Shown here piece by piece: positions 5,653 to 25,032 of a stretch of DNA of 25,995 bases (positions are counted from its first letter, which is position 1; each line of letters starts with the position of its first letter). A program made the position numbers and the translations under genes. Source of the DNA: a virus. Below the pieces are notes generated by a model, which was not told the DNA's origin, made no database searches, and saw only the letters and a program-made list of their open reading frames with translations. The stretch lies in IMG/VR virus record IMGVR_UViG_3300035670_009289, positions 1-25,995 of that record. One strand, written 5' to 3'.

Positions 5653-6617
5653 GCTGCTACTCCAAGTGTTTTCGGACGAGGGCGGTAGTCGGACTTGAGA
5701 CGCGGCAAGGTGTCTGGAATCCACATAAGGTTTGTCGCGTGGACGTTCTTTCGATTTCCATCTTTGAACCGGATTACATCGCCCCGAGGGCCGCAGAAGC
5801 AAAGCGCGACAGCGAGTGCCGCATTCACAGAGATCGTCTTGTTGCGCCGAATGAACATGGCGCAAGGCGTGTTATTGTTGAAATAAACCCGGTGAAGGGC
5901 GCCGTTTGAATTACGGAAACGGCCGTAGTTGGAAACTTCGGCGTTATTAATACCTGGCACAGGGCGCCAAATTTCATTAACCGGCTCCAAAACCCCATTA
6001 ACAGAGCGATACCGCGGCTTGTCGAACTTCGGCGTTGCGTCTTTTGGCTTGAAGGGAACAACGTTCGACTTGGCTGGCTCGCGCTCCGGCTGCGGCCCGT
6101 TGTTCATTAGGAAGCTGATATCCTTGTGCGCAGATGCAAGAAGCTGGGCAAGTCGATCATTTTTCGCCGTTAGCTTCGAATTATCTTGCATCACAGTCTG
6201 GAAGTAATTGGCAACTTGCTCAACAGTGCCGCTTACATCGATCACTTCATCGTCGACCGTGACCGCAAATGAAATGTGGGCGCTGTTTCGGCCCTTCTTC
6301 AAGCCTGCGCCGTGACCGCGACCAAGTGACAGCTTTTCTTTCGCCGACTGCTCGATCTTCGGATCATGATGATATGATTCAAGTTCTCCGAGAGATGACT
6401 CGAAGATGTAGTGACCAGGCGGAAGTCCGCTGCCTTTTGGAATGGACACGATTGCTTGCGGATTGTTAGCCTTGAAAATCTGTCGGATAGCGCTCAACAG
6501 ATTTTCGTCCTCGCCCGGTCGCTCTGCACGACTTACGTCAATCGCACGGACGACGATACGACCGCCGATCGATGCGCGAGCCATTCCGCGAATAAAGGGA
6601 AGCTGCGTGATGCTCAC
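5649..6617 (-). CDS. unknown N-terminal domain fused to a degenerate NUMOD4/HNH-like domain
   Basis: A 322-residue protein. Residues 1-175 are unrecognised and end in a short coiled coil. Residues 176-210 form a Pro/Lys-rich linker. Residues 214-237 match a NUMOD4 DNA-binding motif (EIWRPVPG, then VSNYGRFRN). Residues 260-300 follow the HNH_3 layout, with FKDGNRKN and NLMW. In active HNH_3 proteins the DG-N motif is preceded by a catalytic His (H-x-DG); here that position is Phe284. This suggests DNA binding kept and cleavage lost. The start is GTG at 6617 with AAAGG upstream. It is first after the promoter/operator at 6634-6682 and overlaps sbcD by ATGA. Confidence 0.72.
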   Translation of the reverse strand: MSITQLPFIRGMARASIGGRIVVRAIDVSRAERPGEDENLLSAIRQIFKANNPQAIVSIPKGSGLPPGHYIFESSLGELESYHHDPKIEQSAKEKLSLGRGHGAGLKKGRNSAHISFAVTVDDEVIDVSGTVEQVANYFQTVMQDNSKLTAKNDRLAQLLASAHKDISFLMNNGPQPEREPAKSNVVPFKPKDATPKFDKPRYRSVNGVLEPVNEIWRPVPGINNAEVSNYGRFRNSNGALHRVYFNNNTPCAMFIRRNKTISVNAALAVALCFCGPRGDVIRFKDGNRKNVHATNLMWIPDTLPRLKSDYRPRPKTLGVAA

Positions 6618-6633
6618 TTGATACCTTTCTAAG

Positions 6634-6682
6634 TAAGTGATTACTTATGAGAGAAGTTATAGCTGAGCGCAAATCGGAGTGC
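6634..6682 (-). promoter_or_regulatory. phage promoter with TAAGT operator
   Basis: On the minus strand GCACTCCG (6675-6682) is followed after 11 nt by GCTATAA (6657-6663). The palindrome TAAGTGATTACTTA at 6634-6647 follows 9 nt downstream and ends 17 nt before the GTG start at 6617. It is one of two perfect GATT-spaced copies in the window. Confidence 0.7.
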
Positions 6683-6701
6683 TGCAGGTGATGCGCGGGA
6701 A

Positions 6702-7139
6702 TTAAAAGGTCGTCTTTCCGGCAAGCTTGATGAAGTGCTTGTGGTTGACATAGTGCTGCATGGCACCGCCCCGCGCCTCATAATTGCGGAAGGAAAACTT
6801 GGTTGGATCCATGCAGGTGTCGAGGGTCGTGATATAGATCATTCCGCCTCGCTCGCGCTCAACAACGCCAACGTATTTCACCTTCTTGAGCCGGAACTCC
6901 AGGAGGTGATCGTGATCGAAGGCCCACTCTTCCTTGTTGAGGGCCATTGCCGCGGAGATATTAGGTTCTCCGCAGCAGAAGATCTCGCCACGCCAGCGAC
7001 GGGCGAGATAGCAGAGATCACCGTTCGACAACTCGTAGACCGCTCCAATAATGCGGGAGCTGCGCTTCACGACCCACTTGATGTTCTTCTTGGAGAACTT
7101 GCGCTGGGGCGGGCGTGGAAACTTCCGTTTCGCTGCCAT
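6702..7139 (-). CDS. basic protein of unknown function
   Basis: A 145-residue protein with a strongly basic start (MAAKRKFPRPPQRKFSKK) and a compact, strand-rich remainder. It is not recognised. ATG at 7139 has GGAG 9 nt upstream. Its first 122 nt overlap the 3' end of the ASCH gene on the same strand in another frame, a long overlap for this phage, where 1-4 nt overlaps are usual. The basic N-terminus lies wholly inside that overlap. It ends 17 nt before the promoter element at 6682. Confidence 0.6.
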   Translation of the reverse strand: MAAKRKFPRPPQRKFSKKNIKWVVKRSSRIIGAVYELSNGDLCYLARRWRGEIFCCGEPNISAAMALNKEEWAFDHDHLLEFRLKKVKYVGVVERERGGMIYITTLDTCMDPTKFSFRNYEARGGAMQHYVNHKHFIKLAGKTTF

Positions 7140-11993: not shown

Positions 11994-14900
11994 TCACGAC
12001 AGGCAATCAGCGACAGCCGCGAACACCTCGTTCATGTTCTGCTGCTTGTCGGGATCGTGGTAGATCTCGCCGGGGCTGAACCCGATCACGATGTTTGCAT
12101 CGTAATCCTTCGAGTAGATCACCTTGCCGGCCTGCTCTGACGCCTTGCCCTTGAAGTCGGGGAAGAAGTGTCGAACAGTGGTTGAGCCAAGCAGCACAAT
12201 AACAGGCGGCTTCAACAGCTCGATTTCTCGCGCAAGGTAAGGCTCATAGATCTTGATCTCTTCCGGCGTCACCTGCTTGCCGCGCTTCGGACGCTTGATG
12301 AGTGCCGTCCAGTAGGCATTTGCCCGATCCAGGGACGCATTCTCGATCGCCTCAACGACAGCGTTGTTGGACATGGAGAAGCCCATGACGCCGCCCGTAT
12401 CCTCCTCGTTGCCAGGCGCATCGGAAATGATCATGAAGTCCGCGTTCTTGCCGAAGAACGGCTTGACCGGATAGCCATCGGCAGTCGTCGCCTTCGGGCC
12501 ATGTGCTGCGCGGTATTCATCCACCAGCTCGCCAAGGGCAGCTTTTGTGTCCTTATCCCTGTTCAGTTCGTGCTCGATCGGCACATGTGCGGCGATCAAG
12601 CCTGGCAATAGCGCGATCTGATCCTTGATACGCGAGGGATCATTCGCCGGAACCTGTCCAGGTTCGATACGTGAGAAGGCACCGACGAGATCGAGCGCCT
12701 CTTGAACGCGCTTGTTACAGACGCGCTTTTCAACGCGGGAGAGAAAATCGTTCTTATCGAGAAACGGTCCCGCCTTTCGCGCCTCAAGAATTGCCGCCGT
12801 CGCCTTCTCACTCAGACCCTTGATGCGCTGAAGCGGCATAACCAGTCGAATAGGCGTTGCCATTTCAAAGCGATCGGTCGAGATATTGATATCGGGCATC
12901 GAGACTTCGATACCAAGCGACTTGGCATCGCGGATGATTCCCGTCAGCTTCTCTTCCCTTTGAACAGTGAGAGCGGCTGCGTAAAACTCTGCAGGATAGT
13001 AGGTCTTCAGATACATCGACTGATAGGAGATCAGCGTGTATTCAACCGAGTGCGACTTGTTGAAGCCGTATCCAGCGAAGCCTTCGATCTTGTCAAACAG
13101 CGCGCCGGCCCAATCCTCGGTGCAGCCGATCGTGGCGACACAGCCGTCGCAGAACTTCTTGCGCTCCTTCTTCATCTCCTCCGGCAGCTTCTTACCCATG
13201 ATCTTACGCAGCTTGTCAGCAGCGGCACCGGAATAGCCGGCAATCACCTGGGAGATCTTCATGACCTGTTCCTGATAGACGATGACACCGAAGGTCTCTT
13301 CGAGCACCGGCTCCATCAGTGGATGGTCGTATTCGATATCCTCGTTGCCCTGCTTGCGCAGATAGAACGAGTCCATCATTCCCGATTCAATAGGACCAGG
13401 GCGATAAAGCGCGGTGCAGGCGGTGATGTCTTCGAACGTAATCACGCCCGTTGAGCCGAGCTCCTTCAAGAGCCGGCGCATACCTCCGGACTCGAACTGA
13501 AAGATTGCGGTCGTGTTCGCCTTGGCAAAGTTTGCCAGCACCTTCTCGTCGTCCAGCGGAATCCGGTTAAGATCAAGCCGCTTTCCAGTGTTCTCCCTGA
13601 TGTAGTCGAGGGTGAGCGTCATATGGTCGAGCGTGTTCAAGCCGAGCACGTCCATCTTGACCAGACCCTGATCCTCAACGATGCGCTTGTCCCAGCAGAC
13701 AACATTGCCTTCTTTGCGCCGCTCCACGACTGCGCGGTCTACGATATCGACACCAGCGACAATGACACCGCCTGCGTGCTGACCAAAGTTGCGGATCGTG
13801 CCTTCCAGGCGCTCCATCATCGGATAGTGCGTCGGGTAGTTGTTGGCGAAGTCGTCGATCTCCTTTACCTGCTTGCGAGCCTCGGGGAGGGGAACGTTCT
13901 GCCCGTGCAGCTTTGGAACGAACTTGGAGACGGAGAAGTCCTTTTCGGGAATGAGCGTCACGCGGCCGACGTCACGGATCGCAGACGCCGAGCCGAGCGT
14001 TCCATAATTGTTGACGCCCGCAACGCGCTCAGCGCCATATTTCTTGGTCAGGTATTCGAAGACTTCGTGCCGGCGCTCGGACATGAAATCGAGATCGGCG
14101 TCAGGCAAGTCGATACGTTCGGGGTTGATGAAGCGCTCAAACAGAAGACCGAACCGGATTGGATCGCATTCGGTAATGCCCATCAGGTAAGCAACGAGGG
14201 ATCCGCCCACGGAGCCGCGACCAGGTCCAACCATGATGCCCGACTTCTTGGCAAACTGAACCACGTCCTGCACCAGCAGGAAGTAGCCCGAGAAGTTCAG
14301 GCGCTTCAGCGTTTCAAGTTCGTAGGCAAGACGGGGCTTATAGACCTCAAGCAGCTCTTTCGGATCAGGCTGATGACCGAAGATTGGCGCGTCGAAGCGT
14401 TCCTTCCAGCCCTTCTTGCACTCCTCGACCACAGCCGCAAACTCGTTCGGCGCCATAATTGGAAGGGAGACGTCGGCCTTCTTCCACTCATATTCGACCA
14501 GATTGACGAGTTCGACGGTGTTCATAAGACCGCTCTTGAACTGCGCAGCGGTGAAGCCAGGATCGTTGCCGCGCTTCACCAGATGAGCAACAGCCTTCTT
14601 CATTTCGCCTATCAGCTCGCCAGAGCCCATGACGTGCATGTCACGATTAAACCGGGACTTAAACCAGCCGTCCGTGATCTTGTTGTTCTCGGCTATCGCC
14701 GACATGATCTCCTGAGTGTCAGCCTCGCCCTGACCATAGAACGCCGGCCGCACTACGATCGGCTTCAATCCGTTCTCGTTGATCTGCTTGAGTGCCAGAT
14801 CGTTTAGGCGTCCGTAGTAGGGCGTATTGATCGGGATGAGAGGCGCATAAACGTTCTCGCAAAGAATGGTCAGTCCTTTGATAAGCTTCGTGTGCTCCGA

Positions 14901-15359
14901 ATGCTCCAGGATCGAATGCGCGTCACCAAGCACGATTGCGAGGTCGCCTCGGTCGATGGCGCGCAGCTCGTTGGTAAGATCACTGAAGCCGAGCTTGGCC
15001 TCGTAGTAGAAGCGATCATCCGAATTGGCGAGAGTCAGGAGACGGAAGATCGCCTTCATACCGGCTTCCTTCAGCGCGTAGACGGTGAGGAAGTAAGATC
15101 GCGGCATGTCCTTTTTCTTCTCGCCGTCACCGGGACGCCAGGTCGGGTTATCAGTCAAGCGAAGACGGCAGCCGATGACAGGCTTCAGACCTTCAGCCTT
15201 TGCCTTGTTGGTGAAGTCAATCATAGAGGTAACGGACATTGTATCCGTCATCGCGACAGCTTTTGCTCCGGCTTCGACGGCGTTCTTGATCAGACGCTTG
15301 GTCGTGAGGATGCTTTCGCCGACTGAGAAATCAGTCCGCGCTGCAAGGATCGAGTGCAT
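11994..15359 (-). CDS. dnaE: DNA polymerase III alpha subunit (DnaE-type) fused to a uracil-DNA-glycosylase-like domain
   Basis: A 1121-residue C-family replicative polymerase. The PHP-like N-terminus is degenerate: the family HxH and TDH motifs read LAARTDFS and MTDTMSV, so its metal site is probably lost. The palm has GPGRGSVGGS and the catalytic PDADLDF near 415-421. The fingers and helix-hairpin-helix regions continue to about 900. In place of the usual OB-fold and tau-binding end, residues 972-1121 form a family-4-like UDG domain: SDAPGNEED at 979-987 and VIVLLGST near 1053-1060. The UDG domain lacks Fe-S cysteines, and the usual HPS-type motif reads FSPGEIYH. ATG at 15359 with AGGG upstream. 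It follows the 77-residue gene by 6 nt. Confidence 0.9.
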   Translation of the reverse strand: MHSILAARTDFSVGESILTTKRLIKNAVEAGAKAVAMTDTMSVTSMIDFTNKAKAEGLKPVIGCRLRLTDNPTWRPGDGEKKKDMPRSYFLTVYALKEAGMKAIFRLLTLANSDDRFYYEAKLGFSDLTNELRAIDRGDLAIVLGDAHSILEHSEHTKLIKGLTILCENVYAPLIPINTPYYGRLNDLALKQINENGLKPIVVRPAFYGQGEADTQEIMSAIAENNKITDGWFKSRFNRDMHVMGSGELIGEMKKAVAHLVKRGNDPGFTAAQFKSGLMNTVELVNLVEYEWKKADVSLPIMAPNEFAAVVEECKKGWKERFDAPIFGHQPDPKELLEVYKPRLAYELETLKRLNFSGYFLLVQDVVQFAKKSGIMVGPGRGSVGGSLVAYLMGITECDPIRFGLLFERFINPERIDLPDADLDFMSERRHEVFEYLTKKYGAERVAGVNNYGTLGSASAIRDVGRVTLIPEKDFSVSKFVPKLHGQNVPLPEARKQVKEIDDFANNYPTHYPMMERLEGTIRNFGQHAGGVIVAGVDIVDRAVVERRKEGNVVCWDKRIVEDQGLVKMDVLGLNTLDHMTLTLDYIRENTGKRLDLNRIPLDDEKVLANFAKANTTAIFQFESGGMRRLLKELGSTGVITFEDITACTALYRPGPIESGMMDSFYLRKQGNEDIEYDHPLMEPVLEETFGVIVYQEQVMKISQVIAGYSGAAADKLRKIMGKKLPEEMKKERKKFCDGCVATIGCTEDWAGALFDKIEGFAGYGFNKSHSVEYTLISYQSMYLKTYYPAEFYAAALTVQREEKLTGIIRDAKSLGIEVSMPDINISTDRFEMATPIRLVMPLQRIKGLSEKATAAILEARKAGPFLDKNDFLSRVEKRVCNKRVQEALDLVGAFSRIEPGQVPANDPSRIKDQIALLPGLIAAHVPIEHELNRDKDTKAALGELVDEYRAAHGPKATTADGYPVKPFFGKNADFMIISDAPGNEEDTGGVMGFSMSNNAVVEAIENASLDRANAYWTALIKRPKRGKQVTPEEIKIYEPYLAREIELLKPPVIVLLGSTTVRHFFPDFKGKASEQAGKVIYSKDYDANIVIGFSPGEIYHDPDKQQNMNEVFAAVADCLS

Positions 15360-15365
15360 GGCGAA

Positions 15366-15599
15366 TTACCCTTTGATTGGATGAAAATCGTAAACGAATG
15401 CGTTGGGCTCGCCTTCGAGCAGACCAAGTCCGTCCTTTTGGGAGAGGTCTTTGATCTTGGTGTTTAGACGCTCCTCGACCCGGCGAATGATCGCATCGTT
15501 GATAGAACCGCTTTCGAAAACGCCGTTCGAGAAATGCAAGATTCCCCGGAACCTGTAGCTGTAGAAAAGCCTCGTGCCGGTCTTTTGCTCAGTCGCCAT
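15366..15599 (-). CDS. small protein of unknown function
   Basis: A 77-residue protein that looks folded, with alternating strands around RLFYSYRFRGILHFSN and a helix in the middle. I do not recognise it. ATG at 15599 is chosen because AGGGG lies 6 nt upstream; a TTG two codons earlier overlaps the upstream stop and is less likely. It sits between the four-cysteine protein and the polymerase gene in one minus-strand run. Confidence 0.65.
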   Translation of the reverse strand: MATEQKTGTRLFYSYRFRGILHFSNGVFESGSINDAIIRRVEERLNTKIKDLSQKDGLGLLEGEPNAFVYDFHPIKG

Positions 15600-15601
15600 A
15601 T

Positions 15602-16150
15602 TCAACCCCTTAGTTCTATCACGCCGTCCCGGTTGATGATCGCGCCGATATGCTCAAGCGCCTGGATTGCCATGCGAGCATGGGCGTCAGCTGTGCCTTG
15701 CTGCCAATCGAGCTTCTTCATGAAAGCGGTGGCAAGCAGAGGCCGGTCGATTCGCGCGCTCTTGAAGTTGAGCAAGATGTGCCCAACGATTTGCATGAAC
15801 TTCATGGACGAGCCGAACGGGTTTTCGCCGCGCGCGAACTTACCTTTGACGTCGTAATTTCCGCGGTCGAGCCGGTCGATCAGCTCCTGCGTCTTCTTTG
15901 GCAGAACCAGCATTTCAGCCGGACGGTTTGCTTCGCGCTGTCGGCGCTCCTCGGCAAGCTGCTGGGTGCGATCCGCATAGACCTGCGCAGAGGTCTTGAT
16001 GCCATATCGCTCGCGCAAAACCGCGCGCGCTTCAATATGCGCAGGCTCACATGCCTCTGCAAACTTGCATAGGCGGCAAACAGTGTCGTCCTTCTTGAAG
16101 GCGACTGCTGAGCCGAAGCAGCCCGGCGAATACTGTGGAATCGTCGTCAT
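15602..16150 (-). CDS. four-cysteine (WhiB-like spacing) protein
   Basis: A 182-residue protein starting MTTIPQYSPG, ATG at 16150, with AGGA 5 nt upstream. Cysteines 11, 25, 28 and 34 form C-x13-C-x2-C-x5-C (CRLCKFAEAC). The last three have the spacing of the iron-sulfur site in WhiB regulators, and the 195-residue protein at 25043 has the same Cx2Cx5C. The remainder is helical, with a possible winged-helix-like C-terminus (ALEHIGAIINRDG). Binding of Fe-S or zinc is likely; a DNA-binding regulator is one guess. It directly follows the sigma factor gene. The frame is open 50 codons upstream, inside the sigma gene, but without similarity or a ribosome site. Confidence 0.7.
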   Translation of the reverse strand: MTTIPQYSPGCFGSAVAFKKDDTVCRLCKFAEACEPAHIEARAVLRERYGIKTSAQVYADRTQQLAEERRQREANRPAEMLVLPKKTQELIDRLDRGNYDVKGKFARGENPFGSSMKFMQIVGHILLNFKSARIDRPLLATAFMKKLDWQQGTADAHARMAIQALEHIGAIINRDGVIELRG

Positions 16151-16157
16151 GATGGTC

Positions 16158-16790
16158 CTAATTCGAAATGAGCCGCCCGATCTGGCTGACTTCATCCATG
16201 ATCTGCTTCCGCTCGACGCGACTTGCGCCCATGAAGTCAAAGATGATGGCGCTGGTGACACGCTTCGGCACCGCGTAGCAGGCGCCGATTTCCTTGGCAT
16301 AGGCCGCTTTGGCCTGAAGATCGTTCATCCGCTCGATAAGCTCCGGCGGGTTGTCTCGCAGAAAAGTCAGGAACATCTGCGAGCGGCTGGAAAGCCGGGT
16401 CATGGCGTATGCAAAGCAGTCTTCACGCTGAAACGCCTCGTCGTGGCGAATGCCTGTATCGCCAATGATATCGCCCAGAGTGCCGTCGGAGGAATCGTCG
16501 CCGATCTGTAGATCGAGGGATGCGGCGACGGTCTCGGCGTGATTGCGCTCGAAGTTCTTCTCAACCCAACGGTTGATGTGATTGCGGAGCCCGGTGTAGA
16601 GGAACGTCTTGAATGAGGCACCGCCATTATCGTCGTAGGCGTCACAAGCCAGGCACCAGCCGACCCACAATTCGCTTTCGACATCTTCGAGGAGAACGCT
16701 CCTGGCCCCAAGCGCATGAACGCGCTTGAGAACCTTGTATGCGAAAGCCTTGATCTGGCTGCGATCAAGTTTTGGATCACGCTTGATCAT
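16158..16790 (-). CDS. phage RNA polymerase sigma factor
   Basis: A 210-residue protein whose residues 10-80 fit sigma-70 region 2: basic helix, LLEDVESELWVGWCLACDAY, then F-KTFLYTGLRNHINRW. This part binds the core enzyme and melts the -10 element. The remainder is helical but no standard region 4 helix-turn-helix stands out, similar to short phage sigmas such as T4 gp55 (layout comparison). It may direct the host polymerase to the repeated GCTATAW promoters of this window. ATG at 16790 overlaps the cobS-like stop (ATGA). Confidence 0.75.
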   Translation of the reverse strand: MIKRDPKLDRSQIKAFAYKVLKRVHALGARSVLLEDVESELWVGWCLACDAYDDNGGASFKTFLYTGLRNHINRWVEKNFERNHAETVAASLDLQIGDDSSDGTLGDIIGDTGIRHDEAFQREDCFAYAMTRLSSRSQMFLTFLRDNPPELIERMNDLQAKAAYAKEIGACYAVPKRVTSAIIFDFMGASRVERKQIMDEVSQIGRLISN

Positions 16791-18094
16791 GCGCCAAACA
16801 CCCGCTGCATGTATTCCTGGACGACCTTCTTATCGACGCGAGAAAGGCGGTTAGCGAAGGCAAGCTCCATTCCGAGCGTCCAGTTGCCACCGTAGGCGAT
16901 ACCAAGTGATGCGCAGCGGATAAGCTCGCGTGGCGACACGGTCATGGTGATCTTGCCGTCCCGGAAGAGCTTGCGCACTTCGTTCGCCATCTTGACGATC
17001 TTGTTGGCAGAGGCGCTATCGATGCCGGTCTTCGACTGCAGAATTGCGGTCTCGATCTTGGCATCCATGTATTCGACCTCTTCGGTGATGGCGAAGCGCG
17101 AATAGTTGGCAGCATTCTGAACGAGCGTGCCTTGATAGAGACCGGTCTCGTCACCGACACCGTTTGTGTTGCCGGTCGCAACGAAACGGAAGTTTGGATG
17201 CGGAATGATCTTGCGGAAGTGCGGTGGCGCATCCTTGATCAGAAGCGGCTGACCTTCGAGAACCGGCTGATAAACCGCAGTGACGGACGGCATCGCAAAG
17301 TCGTATTCGTCGGCGCAATAGACCCAGCCGTTGATCATAGCCATCGGCAACGGTCCAAGCTGGAACTCGGTGACTGACTGCTGCTTCATCACCTTGTGCT
17401 TGACGCCGGAGCTGTCAATCTCCTCGACTTCGACAGGCTTGGAGCGAACCGTCCACTGACCAAGAACGTCCGATTCCTGCATGTTGATCGTGTGCTGGAC
17501 GCGAATGAAGGGACGACGAGTGCGCGCGGCTGCCTGCTGCAAGATCGTTGTCTTGCCAGTGCCGTGAAAGCCCCAGAGATATGTCGGCATGTTCAGCTCA
17601 AAGCCGATGATGACCTTCTTCAAGAGATCGATATTGAAGACGTAGGACTTGTCGACATCGGCCAGGAAGTCGGACGAGATCGCGTCGTGGCCTTCGAGGA
17701 TCTTGATCGGGATCGGTTGACCCTTTGCAGACAAGGCCGCAGACGAAGTTCCAAGCTCGAACAACTCGTGAAACAGAGCCTGCTTGACGACAAGCTTGCT
17801 TGTGGAGCCAACGCCCGCTTCCATCAGCATGTTTGCGTGGATCGAGGATGACTGCTCAGAAGGAGCCGGCGCCTGTGCTTCGCGCTCCGCCTTCTTCTTG
17901 GCGATAATATCGAGCGCGGTCTGCGAGAAGAGCGGCTCGCCGGGATACTCGGCCTGATACTTCTCAATCGACCAGTCGGGGTGATTGTTCTTGATGTGCG
18001 CCTGGATCGAGTGAACGCGAACGTTGTCGATATGGCACAAAATCTTATCGTCAGGCGCAGCGACAGCTACGCCAGCTTCAGCAGCCTGGCTCAT
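16787..18094 (-). CDS. cobS: CobS-like MoxR-family AAA+ ATPase
   Basis: A 435-residue protein. The N-terminal CobS domain is at 20-60 (HSIQAHIKNNHPDWSIEKY then YPGEPLFS). The AAA+ core has Walker A GFHGTGKTT at 175-183, Walker B WVYCADEYD at 257-265 and a sensor-1 VATGNTNG. In cobalamin synthesis CobS is the ATPase of the CobNST cobaltochelatase; phage copies usually travel with CobT but without CobN. The role is therefore unclear: helping the host chelatase, or MoxR/VWA remodelling of another target. ATG 18094 with GAGG 6 nt upstream is preferred over an upstream frame extension that runs through the promoter. CobT lies just upstream. Confidence 0.88.
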   Translation of the reverse strand: MSQAAEAGVAVAAPDDKILCHIDNVRVHSIQAHIKNNHPDWSIEKYQAEYPGEPLFSQTALDIIAKKKAEREAQAPAPSEQSSSIHANMLMEAGVGSTSKLVVKQALFHELFELGTSSAALSAKGQPIPIKILEGHDAISSDFLADVDKSYVFNIDLLKKVIIGFELNMPTYLWGFHGTGKTTILQQAAARTRRPFIRVQHTINMQESDVLGQWTVRSKPVEVEEIDSSGVKHKVMKQQSVTEFQLGPLPMAMINGWVYCADEYDFAMPSVTAVYQPVLEGQPLLIKDAPPHFRKIIPHPNFRFVATGNTNGVGDETGLYQGTLVQNAANYSRFAITEEVEYMDAKIETAILQSKTGIDSASANKIVKMANEVRKLFRDGKITMTVSPRELIRCASLGIAYGGNWTLGMELAFANRLSRVDKKVVQEYMQRVFGA

Positions 18095-18135
18095 GATTTC
18101 CCTCTTGTGTGATGAAGCGCTTTCGCGTTGCGCTA

Positions 18136-18170
18136 TAAGTAACTGATTACTTATTTTCGAGTTGGGACGC
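18136..18170 (-). promoter_or_regulatory. operator and partial promoter upstream of cobS
   Basis: The plus-strand sequence TAAGTAACTGATTACTTA (18136-18153) differs by one base from the 18-nt operator core at 11311-11328. GCGTCCC (minus strand, 18164-18170) sits at the usual place, but the GCTATAW -10 is replaced by operator sequence. The promoter is weaker or different. Confidence 0.5.
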
Positions 18171-18205
18171 AAGCGGGAAAACTAAGCTCCCGCTTACTTT
18201 TTTTT
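18171..18205 (+). terminator. hairpin with T8 tract (intrinsic-terminator shape on plus strand)
   Basis: Arms AAGCGGGA (18171-18178) and TCCCGCTT (18188-18195), 9-nt loop, followed by AC and eight T (18198-18205). Read on the plus strand it is a textbook intrinsic terminator, but all genes here are on the minus strand, where the T tract becomes an A tract before the hairpin. It may stop antisense transcription, or act as a structure at the end of the cobT mRNA. Confidence 0.5.
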
Positions 18206-20511
18206 CAAACGCCGATAAGGATCTTCTTGATTTCGGTCATCACCTGGCCGGGAAGATCCTCGGCCTTACGCAGAACCGTCGACTTCGGGTAATACTTGTT
18301 GACGGAATCGTCCATGATCCCGATCCCGATACATTCGATACCGATCTTGCCAAGCTGCTTGACGACACCAGCAAGGTGTGGACCGGACTTGTGACCGCCC
18401 GCTGGCTGGCCGTCAGAGAGAACCAGCATCACCTTGCGCTTTTCCATCCGTTTCAACAGACGCTCGGCTGCGTATTCCAGGGACTCGCCGTCGATGTTGC
18501 CGTTCAGTCCAGGCTGAGCGCGTTTCATGAAGGCGAAACGCGCTTTCACGGTCGCGGTCAGGCGCTCATCGAAGGTCTTGTAGATTGGCATCACAATCGG
18601 CGTGGTCCGATCCCAACTAATACGCGCCTTCTTCGCCTCTTCGGCCATTGCATCGCGCAGCGACTGCGGCATGTAGCCATAGCCACCCGTCGTAAAGCCG
18701 ATCACCTCGTGCGCGATCTTGACGCGATCAAGCGTGGAGCAGAGCGCGTATCCGGCAGTCATCGCAAGGTTCATCTTGTGACCACCCATCGAGCCGGAGT
18801 TGTCGATCACGACAGACACAGCCGTATCCTTGGAGACATGCTCCTGCTTTTGCGTGAAGACGCGCGGATCGCCGCCTGGCACACGAAACAGCGACGGCGC
18901 ATGAAGCTTTCCGGTGCGATGACCAGGAGTTCGAATGACGTGGGACTGAGACGCCATGATGCGCTCAATATCCTTTTGCATCTTCGAGGTCATGAGCCGC
19001 GTCTCGTCTTCCATTTCCGGAACCCACTTGGAGTTCATATTGTCCGGAAGCTGGACGGGCTTGATTTCGTCAAGCTCGCGGGTGAACACCAGATACTGCT
19101 TCGGATCCATTGCCGCGACTGCTGCATCAGAGATCTTGATGGCGATCTGCGATGACATGTCGACCTCTTCGAAGTCGCCATCTTCATAATCGAACATGGA
19201 CTTTGCGCCACCGTTACCGACGCCTCCTCCACCGCCTTGATGCTCTTCGTCTGATCCTTCGCCTACTTCGCCCTCGCCACCGCCTTCATCACCTGCAGTG
19301 ATGACGGACGAGACCTCGTTGCGGCGACCACCCTCGCCATCGTCATCGTCTTCGTCGGAGCTATCGCTTGAGACGTCTTCGCCATCGTCATTCTCATCGC
19401 CGTCTTCAGCGCCTGACGACACAGTCTCGTCTTCCTCAGCGTCCGGGTCTTTATCCGTAACATCTTCGCCGTCTACGGTGCTGTCTTCATCCGGTTCATC
19501 TTCGGAAGCTTCACCATCGACGCCGTCCTCCGCAGTCTCAGGCTCATCATCGACCTCCTCTGCAGGCTCTTCTTCCTTCTTCTTGTCCTTGCCCTTTGAC
19601 TTCTTGTCGTCAGCCTTTGAGCCGCTACCGCTGCCTTCGCCCTCGGCTTCGTCTTCACCCTTGCTCTCTTCACCCTTGCCGCTATCACCAGGATCCTTAT
19701 CCTTGTGATCGCGCTCGCCGTCGCCATCGCCCTCGCCAGCCTCCTTTTCGGGCTTGTCCTGAGACTTGCCCTTCTGGCTGATCTTGACTTCCGGCTCAGG
19801 TGCGGCAGGCGGGGCAGGCGGGGCAGGCGGCAGGATCTTGCCCATGAGGATGTCATGGACCTCCTCTGTCACAGCGAGCGTTTCCTTCGTGGTCGTGGCC
19901 TTCTTGAGAAGATCGAGCGTTGCAGGCTTCATGGTCTTCAGAAGCTCTTCGACCATTGGATGCTTCCAGTAGCCGCGCTTATCCATCCATTCCTGCATTT
20001 CCTCATGCCCGCCCAGAGCACGCATCATCGGAACGAGAATGTAGCGAAACTGCTCCTTGGGATCCTTTACGCCCTTCAGCGCGACATCGGTGATCTTTTC
20101 GAGAAACCACTTGCGCGTAACCGACAAATTGCGCGCGGCACCAGGAAAAGTCTTTACCTGCTCGCGCTCGATCATCACGTCTTCGATGATGTTATGGGTC
20201 TGCATGAAAGCCCGGCGCTTGGGATCACGCAGATCCCTCTCGCTCATCCCGCCCTTTCCACCATAGTAGTTCCAGTCGGTGTGCAAGACATGCGCAACTT
20301 CGTGATCAACGAAGCCTGAAATGGCTGCGATGAACTCAGGCTGCGCATTGTCGGGAATATTGGGAATGTTGACCAAGATTGGCTGCTTGGTCTTAACGTC
20401 GGTCTTTACATATGCCTGCGAACCGCGCTGCGTCACTGCCAAACCCTTGCCTGACAGAAGAGGAACGAGCTTCGTAATCACCTCGCGCAATTCGATGATG
20501 TCGCGGTTCAT
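18205..20511 (-). CDS. cobT: CobT-like VWA-domain protein with HExxH motif
   Basis: A 768-residue protein. The N-terminal third has HEVAHVLHTD at 70-79 and IIEDVMIERE near 108-117, a zincin-like HExxH with a downstream Glu. A very acidic, repetitive Asp/Glu/Ser/Gly region lies at about 225-435. The C-terminal VWA domain has the MIDAS motif DNSGSMGG near 570 and LVLSDGQPAGG further on. This is the layout of CobT-type VWA partners of CobS ATPases. Whether the HExxH is a working protease is unknown. ATG at 20511 with GGAG 9 nt upstream, behind an operator at 20531-20548. The gene is longer than bacterial cobT (about 630 residues), mainly through the acidic region. Confidence 0.87.
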   Translation of the reverse strand: MNRDIIELREVITKLVPLLSGKGLAVTQRGSQAYVKTDVKTKQPILVNIPNIPDNAQPEFIAAISGFVDHEVAHVLHTDWNYYGGKGGMSERDLRDPKRRAFMQTHNIIEDVMIEREQVKTFPGAARNLSVTRKWFLEKITDVALKGVKDPKEQFRYILVPMMRALGGHEEMQEWMDKRGYWKHPMVEELLKTMKPATLDLLKKATTTKETLAVTEEVHDILMGKILPPAPPAPPAAPEPEVKISQKGKSQDKPEKEAGEGDGDGERDHKDKDPGDSGKGEESKGEDEAEGEGSGSGSKADDKKSKGKDKKKEEEPAEEVDDEPETAEDGVDGEASEDEPDEDSTVDGEDVTDKDPDAEEDETVSSGAEDGDENDDGEDVSSDSSDEDDDDGEGGRRNEVSSVITAGDEGGGEGEVGEGSDEEHQGGGGGVGNGGAKSMFDYEDGDFEEVDMSSQIAIKISDAAVAAMDPKQYLVFTRELDEIKPVQLPDNMNSKWVPEMEDETRLMTSKMQKDIERIMASQSHVIRTPGHRTGKLHAPSLFRVPGGDPRVFTQKQEHVSKDTAVSVVIDNSGSMGGHKMNLAMTAGYALCSTLDRVKIAHEVIGFTTGGYGYMPQSLRDAMAEEAKKARISWDRTTPIVMPIYKTFDERLTATVKARFAFMKRAQPGLNGNIDGESLEYAAERLLKRMEKRKVMLVLSDGQPAGGHKSGPHLAGVVKQLGKIGIECIGIGIMDDSVNKYYPKSTVLRKAEDLPGQVMTEIKKILIGV

Positions 20512-21298: not shown

Positions 21299-21359
21299 TG
21301 TAAATCCCCTAATAGGCGGTTCGTTTTCAATTTTAGCGTCTCGCTTTCGACAAACTGAT

Positions 21360-21388
21360 ATATAGCAAGACGTTGATGGGACCGTTGC
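21360..21388 (-). promoter_or_regulatory. phage promoter for the XRE regulator
   Basis: On the minus strand TCCC (21378-21381), 11 nt, GCTATAT (21360-21366). The GCA block upstream of TCCC is not kept (ACGG instead). No TAAGT palindrome follows. Confidence 0.6.
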
Positions 21389-21617
21389 GAAAGCCGTTAG
21401 ACCACACGATAAAATTATGTCAACACTTACTTATCTATTTTCGTTGGACAGGCTTGCGGCAAATCCCAGGTCTGTGTAATTGGCACCGCGTTGGTCTGCC
21501 AGCGAACTAGCCAAAGGAGTTCTTGAGTTCCATAACAGAACTTATCCCGCGCAACATGTGGTGCGGTTCTGAGACTTGGAAAACTTTTGGGGTTCACAAA
21601 CGGAGAGAATCGGGCAA

Positions 21618-21635
21618 TCACTAGCGATGTAGTGA
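21618..21635. promoter_or_regulatory. inverted repeat upstream of the ribbon-helix-helix gene
   Basis: Perfect TCACTA-GCGATG-TAGTGA, ending 5 nt before the ATG at 21641. The size and place fit an operator for autoregulation by the ribbon-helix-helix protein; not tested by any other copy in the window. Confidence 0.45.
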
Positions 21636-21640
21636 TTTGA

Positions 21641-21856
21641 ATGAGTCGGAATTTGAGCATGGGCATCCAAGCAGAGATCACACCGTCAGAACGTTATCGT
21701 GTCAAGCGTGAAGCGCAGGGCGAAAAGCAGGTTCTCCTTTGGATCGAGAACCGTCTGACAGCGAGATTGGATGAGCTGGTCAAATCTGGCGAGTTTCGCA
21801 ATCGGTCTGAGGCCGTTGCAGTTGCACTGAACAAGTTGATTGAGGAACGAAACTAA
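21641..21856 (+). CDS. ribbon-helix-helix (Arc/CopG/ParD-like) DNA-binding protein
   Basis: A 71-residue protein, one of only two plus-strand genes. Residues 30-36 (QVLLWIE) form the DNA-reading strand, followed by helices at about 38-50 (RLTARLDELVKSG) and 54-70 (RSEAVAVALNKLIEE), the standard RHH layout. ATG 21641 or the ATG six codons later (21659, GGA upstream) may be used. It lies 190 nt before repC in the same direction, so it may control copy number or partition of the replicon. An antitoxin is possible, but no toxin gene follows. Confidence 0.75.
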   Translation: MSRNLSMGIQAEITPSERYRVKREAQGEKQVLLWIENRLTARLDELVKSGEFRNRSEAVAVALNKLIEERN

Positions 21857-21865
21857 AGGCTAAAA

Positions 21866-21963
21866 CGGCTGAAGGCTCCAGGTCGGCAAACCCAGAGCCT
21901 TCTAAATAACAGTCGGCGATTCAGAAGGTCTTACAAACCATCGGGAAACACCAGAGCCTAAGC
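21866..21963 (-). ncRNA. candidate antisense RNA (repABC ctRNA/IncA-like) against the repC leader
   Basis: On the strand opposite repC, the 189-nt gap before it contains TTGACA (21993-21998), exactly 17 nt, GATAAC (21970-21975), a good sigma-70 type promoter. Its transcript would run leftward for roughly 100 nt to a hairpin with perfect 8-bp arms GAAGGCTC/GAGCCTTC (21871-21878 and 21895-21902), followed by CGTTTTAG, a terminator-like end. Known repABC replicons carry a small antisense RNA at this location that represses repC. Transcript ends are estimates. Confidence 0.5.
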
Positions 21964-21969
21964 AACTCT

Positions 21970-21998
21970 GTTATCCCGAATCACCGCTGATTTGTCAA
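21970..21998 (-). promoter_or_regulatory. sigma-70-like promoter of the candidate antisense RNA
   Basis: Consensus TTGACA, 17-nt spacer, GATAAC (4 of 6 to TATAAT). Unlike the phage promoters of the window it has host-type -35 and spacing, so it should work without phage factors. Confidence 0.5.
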
Positions 21999-22014
21999 CG
22001 ACTTTTCGAAGTCG
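21999..22014 (+). other. UUCG-tetraloop hairpin in the repC leader
   Basis: Arms CGACTT/AAGTCG enclose TTCG, giving on the plus strand a 6-bp stem with the very stable UUCG loop, 31 nt before the repC ATG and touching the antisense-RNA promoter. It may be part of the leader folding controlled by the antisense RNA. Confidence 0.45.
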
Positions 22015-22045
22015 AAGGCGAAGCTGTGCCTAGAAACGAGGGATA

Positions 22046-23158
22046 ATGAGAAGCGCGCAGTCTTCCGGCTGGCGTGCTCTAAAGCCGAACAAACCGTCGG
22101 CGGCAGAGCCTGATACAGCGGATAAGCAAGTCCTCTATGAGGCAGCCAGGGCAGCAGCCCAGGTCTTGAAACTACCATCGTCTTGCCGGTTCGTGCTGGA
22201 TCAGCTTGTCGGCGTCTACGGTGGCGAGCTGATTGAAAGCCGGATGCTTGTCTGGCCGTCTAACGAATTCCTTGTTGATCGCACAGGAATTCCGGAGCGC
22301 TCCGTTCGCTACGCTGTGTCTCGCCTCATCAGTGAAGGAGTTATCGCAGCGAAAGATTCACCCAATGGCAAGCGTTATGCGCAACGCGGGCCAAACGGGA
22401 AGATCGTAAAGGCGTATGGTTTCGACCTGTCTCCCCTGCTTGCGATGCTACCTGAGCTTCGCGCTCGACTACAGGTCATCAAAGACGCCGAGCGCGAGCG
22501 CCTGGCTGTATTTGATGATCTCACCATTCATCGCAGAGCAGCCCAGGAAGCTCTCAGAACGCTTGCCGAAGTCTATCCTGACATCGACATAGCCGATCTC
22601 GGTTCGCGCGCCCTTGAGCTTGCACGAGTCACGCCGCGTAGATCCGCAAGGGGATCAGCCGACCATGCCCGCGATGCCTGGAAGGCAATCAGGATTGAAG
22701 CAGAAGCCAGGTATTTTGCCGCCTCTGCCGGCAATTCCTGCCGTCACAAAGAGAACAACAAATATGACCCTGATAGATCTTGTAACAACGGCTTTGAAGA
22801 TGTTCAGGCGGAAACGCCGAGACCCGCGGCAACCGTAGAAGACGTGGTAAGGGCGTGCCCGGACGCTATGGAGTTTATCGGGTATGTGCGCAACGACAGG
22901 GAGTTTATTGGCGCCGTCAGTCGGGTCCGCGGCATGTTTGGCGTGTCGCCGTCGGCCTGGGAGGAGGCGGTGCGTGAAATCGGCCCGCTTGGCGCGTCTG
23001 TGACGCTGACTTACGTGGTGCAGCTACAGCAATCGCCCGCGCCCGGATCGGAGACGATCAAGAACGCGGGCGGCTATTTCAGGGCTCTGGTCCGGCTTGT
23101 GAAAGCGGGTCAGTTTGATCTGACAAAGGAGATCAGTCGGTTACTTCTAAGAAGATAA
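22046..23158 (+). CDS. repC: RepC-type plasmid replication initiator
   Basis: A 370-residue protein on the plus strand. The N-terminal winged-helix region (45-130) has the RepC hallmarks LVWPSN, RTGIPERSVRYAVSRL, DSPNGKRYAQRG and AYGFDLSPL. The C-terminal part (about 270-365) has the GVSPSAWEEA, then GGYFRALVRL and GQF pattern. RepC initiates replication of alphaproteobacterial repABC and repC-only plasmids, whose origin lies inside repC; here 22740-22800 is the most AT-rich part of the gene. ATG 22046 with GAGG upstream. No repA or repB precedes it, so it would be a repC-only replicon. Slightly shorter than typical RepC (about 400). Its 3' end overlaps the convergent gene by 26 nt. Confidence 0.85.
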   Translation: MRSAQSSGWRALKPNKPSAAEPDTADKQVLYEAARAAAQVLKLPSSCRFVLDQLVGVYGGELIESRMLVWPSNEFLVDRTGIPERSVRYAVSRLISEGVIAAKDSPNGKRYAQRGPNGKIVKAYGFDLSPLLAMLPELRARLQVIKDAERERLAVFDDLTIHRRAAQEALRTLAEVYPDIDIADLGSRALELARVTPRRSARGSADHARDAWKAIRIEAEARYFAASAGNSCRHKENNKYDPDRSCNNGFEDVQAETPRPAATVEDVVRACPDAMEFIGYVRNDREFIGAVSRVRGMFGVSPSAWEEAVREIGPLGASVTLTYVVQLQQSPAPGSETIKNAGGYFRALVRLVKAGQFDLTKEISRLLLRR

Positions 23159-23372
23159 CTTCTTCGCCAGGTGCTGCAACGGATGCCGCCCAGGCCTGGG
23201 CAGCGAGTTCTTCTTCAACACTTTGAAGAGCCTCCTGCCCGTAGAGCGCCCTGAGCCGCTGAATCTTCTTGGGAGCTTCCATCCTGGCGCTCCTATCATC
23301 TGACCTTACGTCCCGCAGGATCTGCTCGATCTCTGCGCGCACTTCGTCGGTAAGTTCTGCCTTGGGGCGCAT
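23133..23372 (-). CDS. small charged protein of unknown function
   Basis: A 79-residue helical, charged protein starting MRPKAELTDEVRAEIEQIL. ATG 23372 (GGAG 8 nt upstream) overlaps the stop of the 45-residue membrane ORF (TAATG) and is preferred to a start 14 codons earlier. It is not recognised. It runs convergently into repC with a 26-nt overlap, marking the junction between the plus-strand cassette and the minus-strand operon. Confidence 0.6.
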   Translation of the reverse strand: MRPKAELTDEVRAEIEQILRDVRSDDRSARMEAPKKIQRLRALYGQEALQSVEEELAAQAWAASVAAPGEEVIFLEVTD

Positions 23373-23509
23373 TAGTAGTTCTCCCTTGCTAGACCGGCGC
23401 CTATAAGAAGGCAAATAAAGCCTGCAACAGAGGGCGCGGGGTTTCCTGTGAATGCGGTAGCGGTGAATCCGCTACTCGCTGCCATGTAAAAGATCGTGGA
23501 AAAGCTCAT
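23372..23509 (-). CDS. 45-residue membrane protein
   Basis: An ORF of 45 codons fills the space after the ligase gene. ATG 23509 overlaps the ligase stop (ATGA), and its TAA overlaps the next ATG (TAATG). The product starts MSFSTIFYMAASSGFT and has a hydrophobic helix at about 28-41 (SVAGFICLLIGAGLA), ending ARENY. The exact coupling at both ends is the main support. The Shine-Dalgarno of the next gene lies within its last codons. Function unknown. Confidence 0.55.
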   Translation of the reverse strand: MSFSTIFYMAASSGFTATAFTGNPAPSVAGFICLLIGAGLARENY

Positions 23510-25032
23510 GCTGCTTCCCGGCATTCGACTTCTCCATCCTTGTCGTCGCGGAACTTGATCGCCCTGGGATGGCGAAGCGAACCATCAGGCGTGATTTCCA
23601 TGAACTCGGTTTCGAGAAGCCGGGTCATCAGGTTTGTCGCGCCGACTTCCTTGAGATCCGCGTAAGCGAAACTCTTGCCCTTAAAACCGACATGCGGATC
23701 GACACCGAGAGCCTTGGCATCGAGCACCCAGAGCTTCCAAAGCTCCTCACGATCGAGATCGGAAAAGCCACCGCCGACACGCACTTCGACGCCGTCATGG
23801 TCAACGATCACGCCGCCCAGGATATTCTCATACTTGGAATGCTCCTGACCGTTGTAGATTCCGATAATCGGCAGATCGAGCGTCTCCTCGGCCTTGACCT
23901 TCATCCAGACTGACGACTTTTTCTTCTCATAAAGCCCGTCGAGATCCTTTACGACGATCCCTTCGAGAACGGCCGGCTTACCGGTCTTCGGATTGATCGT
24001 GCGCTTGAGAAGCGCTGCCTCCTTGGCCTTGTCGCCGCGCGCCAGATAGGTTGCAAGCAACATTTCGCGAGAGCGCAGGAAGAGAGCCTGCACCTCTTCG
24101 TCATTGTTGACAAAGAACTGCGGCACGATCTGGATTGTCTCCGGCGCCGAGGTATCCTTGAGTGCGACCTTTGCGAGCTCCTGGAACTCCTTGACCCACA
24201 AACGACGAACGGACAACGGAGCGCCGACCGCGCCGACCGCATTGAAGTCATCATAGGACATCATGTCGTAGAGGTGGAGCTCTGCACCGATCGCGTCTTC
24301 ACCTTCGCGACGAAACGCGCCGGTCTCTTCAAACACCGTCATCATCGCTTCGCCGTCGAGCATGAAATTCAGGCGATCCTCGCCATCGCGCATCAGGACA
24401 GAGCGAAGCTCGGGACTGGCCGTTGAAGCGACATAAGCTGCAGCCTTCATAACCGGCTCAACCAGGAAGTCGAGCGCTGCAACACGATTGCCGGAGCGCG
24501 TGAAGAAGCCTGCATTGTTGTCCTTGCAAAGGAAGGTGTTGCGATTGCCGTCCAGCTTGAACTCGGCCTTGTAGGCCTTACCCTTCTTGAGCTTCTTTGC
24601 TTCGTAATGCACCGCCCGTTGAACAGAGAAGACCGGAATAAGGCCGGGCACTGCGATATTGATCGTTTGCGCGCCAATTCCGCATTTCAGATCCTTTGAC
24701 AGAATGAGAAAGAGAAGCCGTGCGCCGACTTCATCCAGCGCACCCATCACCTCGCCGACTTCGCGTTCTGCTGCAAGACCGGTCAGCTCGCGAGCGGCCA
24801 GACGGTTGAGAAGAGGCTCAATGAGGTTCTGCTTGAATTCCATCTTGAAGCGACCGGCGTTTTCGGTCAGCGCTGGCGTCAGGTAGAACCGAATGTAGGG
24901 GTTGTAGGCCCAGGATAGAACGAACCGGCCAAGCTCGGAGGATCCAAGTCGAACCGTCAGTTGCTCTTTCTCCGTGCGGGAAGTGGTCGCCGCGATATCA
25001 TCGATCAGGGACTTTACTGCATAGGCGTCCAT
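23506..25032 (-). CDS. ATP-dependent DNA ligase (T4 gp30-like)
   Basis: A 508-residue ligase. Motif I is KLDGNR with the AMP-accepting Lys at 159. Other nucleotidyltransferase motifs are FFTRSGN (region Ia), LDGEAM (III), EGIVVKD (IV) and WMKVK (V). An N-terminal helical domain of about 150 residues and a C-terminal OB-fold (GGFSDLDREELWKL) complete the T4-like layout. It seals nicks after flap removal by the exonuclease at 8796, and acts in recombination. ATG 25032 has a strong AAGGAG. It lies directly behind the 195-residue conserved-tail gene and is coupled to the small membrane protein by ATGA. Confidence 0.92.
   Translation of the reverse strand: MDAYAVKSLIDDIAATTSRTEKEQLTVRLGSSELGRFVLSWAYNPYIRFYLTPALTENAGRFKMEFKQNLIEPLLNRLAARELTGLAAEREVGEVMGALDEVGARLLFLILSKDLKCGIGAQTINIAVPGLIPVFSVQRAVHYEAKKLKKGKAYKAEFKLDGNRNTFLCKDNNAGFFTRSGNRVAALDFLVEPVMKAAAYVASTASPELRSVLMRDGEDRLNFMLDGEAMMTVFEETGAFRREGEDAIGAELHLYDMMSYDDFNAVGAVGAPLSVRRLWVKEFQELAKVALKDTSAPETIQIVPQFFVNNDEEVQALFLRSREMLLATYLARGDKAKEAALLKRTINPKTGKPAVLEGIVVKDLDGLYEKKKSSVWMKVKAEETLDLPIIGIYNGQEHSKYENILGGVIVDHDGVEVRVGGGFSDLDREELWKLWVLDAKALGVDPHVGFKGKSFAYADLKEVGATNLMTRLLETEFMEITPDGSLRHPRAIKFRDDKDGEVECREAA

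Follow-up and report, generated by a model that had tools for sequence, protein, structure and literature searches.

The closest described systems to the locus reported here are the phage-plasmids of rhizobia. In 2015, pLM21S1 and RHEph10 were put forward as archetypal prophages that resemble plasmids and have a RepC-like system (PMC4447125), pLM21S1 was termed a phage-plasmid in 2017 (PMC5537653), and in 2025 B1VFA and V1VFA-S were described as possible prophage-plasmids with parA, parB and repC (PMC12509600). Mitomycin C did not induce pLM21S1 (PMC4447125), and lysogeny of B1VFA and V1VFA-S has been proposed only (PMC12509600). The literature we searched contained no experimental work on replication in this group, nor any description for the lineage of the predicted antisense RNA, leader switch or frozen repC codons that are the subject of this article.

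Other replicons share parts of the same plan. The repABC replicons (p42d, the Ti plasmids) have a RepC initiator and an oriV-like region inside repC; between repC and the gene before it they encode an antisense RNA whose promoter contains a GANTC site. Our locus differs from them in having a gene for a ribbon-helix-helix (RHH) protein in the place of repA and repB, and an antisense RNA that is unmatched by the Rfam models of the repABC leader. Replicons of the repC family, such as pRmeGR4a, also have repC without repAB in the operon, and an antisense RNA (PMC10194956); the part of that account on which we draw does not mention an RHH gene, and the comparison is with a description rather than a sequence. 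The copG-rnaII-repB region of pMV158 has the same order and the same logic: RHH repressor, antisense RNA, initiator (PMC4485353). pMV158 is, however, a rolling-circle Gram-positive plasmid with an unrelated initiator, so this is a likeness of circuit, with descent not shown. Our literature search, with most subscription journals outside it, returned no description that brings together ribbon-helix-helix, RepC and repABC, and for repC, antisense RNA and phage-plasmid together it returned a general plasmid review only. As far as that literature goes, the RHH-antisense RNA-repC control arrangement, the oriV candidate and the placement in the RepC tree appear to be new.

A fragment of a probable rhizobial phage-plasmid

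The DNA that we analysed (the window) is an entire virus record of 25,995 bases, and is a 26-kb fragment of a phage of ~115-120 kb. A sequence-only reading had picked out the RHH gene and repC as a plus-strand cassette amid minus-strand phage genes, and so it is: the recognisable genes around it, those for CobT, the HTH regulator, DnaE, sigma, CobS and ligase, all lie on the minus strand (Table 1), as do recombination genes farther out, to the left of DnaE.

Table 1. Features of the window, from left to right
Feature	Position	Strand	Basis or remark
DnaE gene	11994-15359	-	
Sigma-like gene	16158-16790	-	
CobS-like gene	16787-18172	-	
CobT-like gene	18205-20511	-	Pfam/PHROG profile searches
Divergent XRE-like HTH regulator gene, 132 aa	20900-21298	-	HTH_3, PHROG, synteny
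Operator-like element GTTCCATAA...CTTAT	21527-21549		Alignment of upstream regions
GAATCGGGC and AATCACTAGCGATGTAGTGATT, CcrM-type GANTC site and inverted repeat	21607-21637		Alignment
RHH (CopG/ParD-fold) gene, 65 aa	21659-21856	+	Profile, model, relatives' start
Predicted antisense (counter-transcribed) RNA gene, ~100 nt	21860-21963	-	Terminator covariation, covariance model, folding
Antisense RNA promoter: TTGACA 21998-21993, 17-nt spacer, GATAAC 21975-21970	21970-21998	-	Kept in relatives
Predicted leader switch: anti-SD TTATCCC 21971-21977, SD/start GGGATAA 22040-22046, hairpin CGACTTTTCGAAGTCG between	21971-22046	+	Folding
repC, RepC/RP-C initiator, 370 aa	22046-23158	+	Pfam, PHROG, homology, selection
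Candidate oriV, repC codons 220-258	22703-22819		AT-rich, synonymous sites nearly frozen
DNA ligase gene	23506-25032	-	Right of repC

Members of the pLM21S1/RHEph10/B1VFA/V1VFA-S group are ~115-122 kb long, encode RepC proteins 62-73% identical to that of the window, and share its order of a divergent HTH gene followed by RHH-repC-(small genes)-ligase, as well as its CobT-CobS-sigma-DnaE order. In tblastn searches RepC found ten Rhizobium phage records within that range of identity and pLM21S1 at 72.6%; it also matches 2,326 plasmid records. Megablast of the window returned V1VFA-S, RHph_X66, B1VFA and pLM21S1, and because they align with only half to two thirds of it, and there at only ~78% DNA identity, we regard the window as a distinct member of the group. 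The gene order is common to the window, V1VFA-S, B1VFA, RHEph10, RHph_X66, Y2_11 and N1_10, and also to pLM21S1, pRlX6, Pararhizobium p5 and Shinella unnamed3. The records of these syntenic relatives run from 115 to 122 kb; several are complete circular plasmids, and RHEph10, RHph_X66, B1VFA and V1VFA-S are isolated siphophages. Like them, the window has a plasmid replication gene within a syntenic phage core.

Capsid, terminase and par genes, which the sequence-only reading wanted sought in the full genome, are absent from the 25,995-base window and present in relatives: B1VFA has terminase, portal, capsid, a ParA-like and a ParB-N protein, and pLM21S1 has ParA, ParB-like, terminase and major capsid genes. 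The proposal of a phage-plasmid is sound and, for this lineage, was already known (2015, 2017, 2025). The close relatives that support it are either phage isolates or plasmids recorded as complete circles, and those inspected for terminase, capsid and par genes have them. The remark that repA and repB are missing stands for the window. Neither lies 5' of repC in one operon, where the RHH gene and the divergent HTH gene are found instead, and the window has no parS of the repABC type (exact GTTNNCNNNNGNNAAC is absent, as is GGTNNGNGCNCNNACC at up to one mismatch). Relatives have parA and ParB-like genes ~40-45 kb away. Where partition is concerned, the lack of repA and repB in the window is an effect of the fragment, and the relatives' par genes are just unfused to repC.

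The relatives offer some observations of their own. In B1VFA (L004, 45850-46757) and in L133 (9644-10545) a small ParA of 215 aa is followed by an 85-87-aa gene, the B1VFA copy of which has no Pfam match; the two resemble a type Ib partition pair in which the centromere-binding protein has gone unrecognised. NAD salvage genes resembling nadM/nadV are present in B1VFA (13589-16080) and pLM21S1 (L003, 43808-46292). The CobS/CobT-like AAA and VWA pair (window 16787-20511) adjoins the replicon across the whole lineage, and possibly has a role other than B12 synthesis, since CobN is not encoded (PMC4447125). In pRlX6 (L010, NZ_CP140813, circular, 119 kb), repC is split into two overlapping frames (5751-6897), and the CobT and ligase genes nearby are annotated in pieces, through decay or sequencing errors.

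The initiator

The 'clear RepC initiator' of the sequence-only reading is just that. Both halves of the RP-C family exceed their curated Pfam cut-offs (N-terminal RP-C, 128.7 bits against 24.4; C-terminal RP-C_C, 67.2 bits against 32.6) and PHROG 22671, a 'replication protein', matches at 303 bits. These domain matches are not chance. The family's conserved columns are retained, and the structure model is confident except for disordered residues 1-19 and 233-259. That reading had allowed for a non-functional relic, which purifying selection speaks against. The nearest relative, L015, is 84% identical; since dN/dS against it is ~0.12 (0.115/0.97), the gene is not a relic, and over five relatives the ratio ranges from ~0.12 to 0.24. 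By these sequence measures repC is a complete RepC initiator under purifying selection, in a cassette that is working-looking.

The RHH gene and its upstream region

The open reading frame of the RHH gene is open from 21641 (71 aa), with its start probably at the ATG at 21659 (MGIQ...), the likelier of the two because relatives share the MGIQ start. The protein looks RHH-like, as the earlier reading had it. Pfam RHH_1 scores 18.3 bits, slightly below its cut-off of 20.5, a profile search matches NikR (E 5e-4), and the AlphaFold model has a pLDDT of 86.6; a fold search of the PDB puts the RHH domains of ParD and NikR first, weakly by E-value (ParD has probability 0.97 but E 0.5). In par systems of type Ib, small RHH proteins bind the centromere, and with ParD antitoxins as its best fold match the protein might serve partition (in the manner of ParG) or be an antitoxin, rather than repress repC. 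We think this unlikely. No toxin gene or parA adjoins the RHH gene, parA lies elsewhere and precedes its own 85-87-aa gene, and RHH is linked to repC even on plasmids without phage genes. A repressor of the RHH-repC promoter is the role we favour.

Facing the cassette is the HTH gene. HTH_3 scores 16.1 bits, under the cut-off, and PHROG classes the gene with transcriptional regulators. Its homologue is syntenic in phage-class relatives and missing next to the Rhizobium leguminosarum plasmid copies of the cassette, making it a candidate lysogeny regulator. The element GTTCCATAA...CTTAT follows the same pattern, being kept in most phage-class relatives and missing from both R. leguminosarum plasmid copies; it may be the HTH operator.

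Closer to the RHH gene, GAATCG...ATCACTAGCGA is strongly conserved and in the window belongs to an inverted repeat at 21616-21637. GAATCG is present in 15 of 15 aligned relatives, as is the TCACT that follows it. The palindrome has perfect 8-bp arms in the window and L015, and is imperfect in some relatives. We regard the conserved stretch as a candidate RHH operator and promoter of the RHH-repC transcript.

A predicted antisense RNA between RHH and repC

The gap between RHH and repC is 190 nt, partly conserved, and from it we predict a minus-strand RNA that starts at ~21963 and ends in a terminator hairpin and tail at 21909-21860. The terminator hairpin has a stem of 13 bp, and its tail is rich in T. 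An equivalent minus-strand promoter and terminator occur in most loci of phages and RHH plasmids, and in an alignment of 30 terminators 12 of the 13 stem pairs show compensatory (both-side) change. Of the cells, 93.6% are paired, a value that none of 500 shuffles reached (77.8% when shuffled); sliding the stems brings pairing down to 69% or less. A covariance model built with the window left out has its minus-strand match in it at 21909-21860, with 33.7 bits and E 7e-7, and scores 12.1 bits on the plus strand. The window thus resembles the repC family, with an antisense RNA 5' of repC and no repAB, in its promoter, covarying terminator and predicted transcript. A consensus sigma-70 scan called no promoter for this RNA, because its -10 element, GATAAC, is off consensus. 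Relative to the RHEph10/pLM21S1 group, the window's RNA has a ~20-nt insertion.

A scan of the window against Rfam gave no accepted match. Plastid 3'-UTR matches at 21888-21937 are merely the terminator hairpin, and we set them aside. Neither ctRNA_p42d (RF00489) nor the S-element matched in the window, phage L017 or plasmid L027; in the repABC locus L077, our positive control, ctRNA_p42d scored 71.5 bits and the S-element matched too. Our window-free model has a weak match in L077 (5745-5798, minus strand, 15.3 bits), and since this falls on the Rfam ctRNA_p42d match at 5747-5793, we take the two RNAs to be equivalents, possibly homologues.

The spacer of the window's antisense promoter contains a GANTC site (21978-21982). 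Such a site is found in 18 of 29 distinct phage promoters, which are related sequences and not 18 independent events, and in 21 of 22 repABC promoters; the background is ~5% of 32-nt stretches in the window and 15% of those in the same leaders. CcrM methylation and GcrA are reported to act on the corresponding Agrobacterium promoter (PMC11514494), and a link to the cell cycle is a lead that the site offers.

A possible switch in the repC leader

The -10 region of the antisense promoter has TTATCCC as its complement, and this stretch can also pair with GGGATAA at the SD/start of repC. We folded leaders with and without the antisense target, using its removal as a stand-in for the antisense duplex. 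In the window the SD/start is unpaired at 0.82 with the target and 0.44 without it. Across 22 loci the means are 0.62 with, 0.34 without and 0.43 with a shuffled target (Wilcoxon P ~1e-5, which overstates independence as the loci are related), and the switch is weak or missing in four of them (L105, L036, L112 and L114). The folding suggests that pairing of the antisense RNA would free TTATCCC, which would then close the repC ribosome site. In p42d, termination is the reported effect of the antisense RNA (PMC3155836). We rejected a termination of that type here: the leader shows no sense-strand intrinsic terminator before repC and no U-tract, for which reason we prefer closure of the ribosome site.

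A candidate origin inside repC

Experiments place the p42d oriV in an AT-rich region midway through repC that has neither iterons nor DnaA boxes (PMC3155836), and there are no DnaA boxes in 21300-23160 of the window either. In 13 phage RepC genes, counted solely where amino acids agree, codons 220-258 show an identical codon choice in 85-96% of comparisons; for the remainder of repC the figure is ~50-60%. Their synonymous excess is 0.34, the 95% maximum of permutations being 0.19. These codons, the AT-richest part of the gene, mostly encode a predicted disordered linker and overlap the segment of pLDDT <50 (residues 233-259). Among close phages the amino acids are conserved too, and a constraint on the protein, or a binding site other than an origin, might have frozen the DNA. 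We consider this improbable, since the excess is at synonymous sites scored where amino acids agree, most of the stretch is predicted to be disordered, repABC repC genes have a different but likewise conserved DNA block in the same place, and the p42d origin has a matching location. An origin remains our preferred interpretation, and codons 220-258 are its best candidate.

How the cassette may work

From what can be read in the DNA (RepC, an RHH-like protein, synteny, a conserved terminator and promoter, frozen codons), we think it probable that the cassette serves as replicon in the plasmid state of a rhizobial phage-plasmid of ~115-120 kb and works as follows. RHH and repC would be co-transcribed from a promoter between 21300 and 21640 that RHH represses, an autoregulation, and that the divergent HTH regulator probably couples to lysogeny. 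Within the gap, a constitutive promoter on the minus strand would supply the ~100-nt antisense RNA, whose pairing with the leader would free TTATCCC to close the GGGATAA ribosome site, so that RepC output would drop as copy number climbs. RepC would initiate at the AT-rich origin within its own gene, segregation would fall to parA and ParB-like genes located in another part of the phage genome, and lytic replication to the phage DnaE, helicase, primase and ligase.

RepC might instead be mainly lytic, loading the phage helicase and polymerase on the phage genome with no stable plasmid state. In all phage relatives repC does sit amid lytic replication genes (DnaE, ligase, primase, DnaB-like helicase), and several relatives were isolated by plaquing. 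Against this, relatives are known as complete, circular plasmids from sequenced bacteria. The cassette is also transcribed against the lytic operon, has predicted negative controls of its own and, in relatives, is joined by parA and ParB-like genes, all of them traits typical of low-copy maintenance. A mainly lytic RepC therefore seems to us a poor prospect beside a plasmid-state replicon.

For a widespread group of phage-plasmids, such a replicon would offer a circuit of copy-number control and incompatibility that can be put to the test. The antisense RNA sequence would predict which of them can coexist, and the repC candidate where the origin lies. Phages are also suggested as suppliers of replicons to rhizobial and methylobacterial plasmids, including one with nif genes.

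RepC in phages and plasmids

Using similarity to the phage protein, we drew relatives from genomes as well as viral contigs and scored their neighbours. Phage loci have the divergent HTH gene and RHH-repC with CobT, CobS and ligase, RHH falling under detection in some. Plasmid and chromosome loci (Microvirga, Methylobacterium and the R. leguminosarum plasmids CP090118, with nif genes, and pRL9b2) mostly have RHH-repC without the CobT/CobS/ligase phage genes; in ~10 Microvirga loci grouped with this class, RHH was undetected at E 1e-3. The third architecture is repABC.

A search and a tree of RepC, which the sequence-only reading had called for, place plasmid copies within phage copies; the tree, rooted on rhizobial repABC, was built quickly, its support values are SH-aLRT alone, and L116 is a long branch in it. 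The window pairs with L015 (SH-aLRT 99), the R. leguminosarum plasmid copies group with phages L016/L019/L022 (SH-aLRT 99), and Methylobacteriaceae plasmid copies are nested in the phage set. The block of divergent HTH gene and RHH-repC is syntenic over the whole lineage, and by this measure RepC is an old core gene of it. The earlier suggestion of a captured plasmid replicon finds no support as a recent event. RepC is otherwise a plasmid and chromid protein, as its thousands of plasmid matches attest, and yet a recent capture by the phage is very improbable given the synteny of the block through a deep lineage across Rhizobiales and the position inside phage copies of the nearest plasmid copies (CP090118 and pRL9b2), which lack the HTH gene. 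The original capture, if there was one, is ancient. Movement of RepC from phage to plasmid is the simplest reading of a quick tree with similarity-based sampling.

It may be, though we would wager slightly against it, that RHH-ctRNA-repC is a third replicon architecture beside repABC and plain repC, native to a deep Rhizobiales phage lineage, with pMV158-like double control and an origin inside the initiator gene. It would have moved to plasmids at least twice, to the R. leguminosarum nif plasmids and to Methylobacteriaceae plasmids, some of which then joined it to repAB.

Some individual loci deserve mention. CP090118 (L011, 7634-9122) and pRL9b2 (L014, 7645-9152) have the RHH-repC cassette of phage type, antisense RNA elements included, but no phage genes or HTH regulator, and nif genes lie near the CP090118 copy. 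In four Microvirga repABC operons (L025, L042, L043 and L056) RepC is of the phage/RHH clade; these are apparent chimeras of repAB with a phage-type repC.
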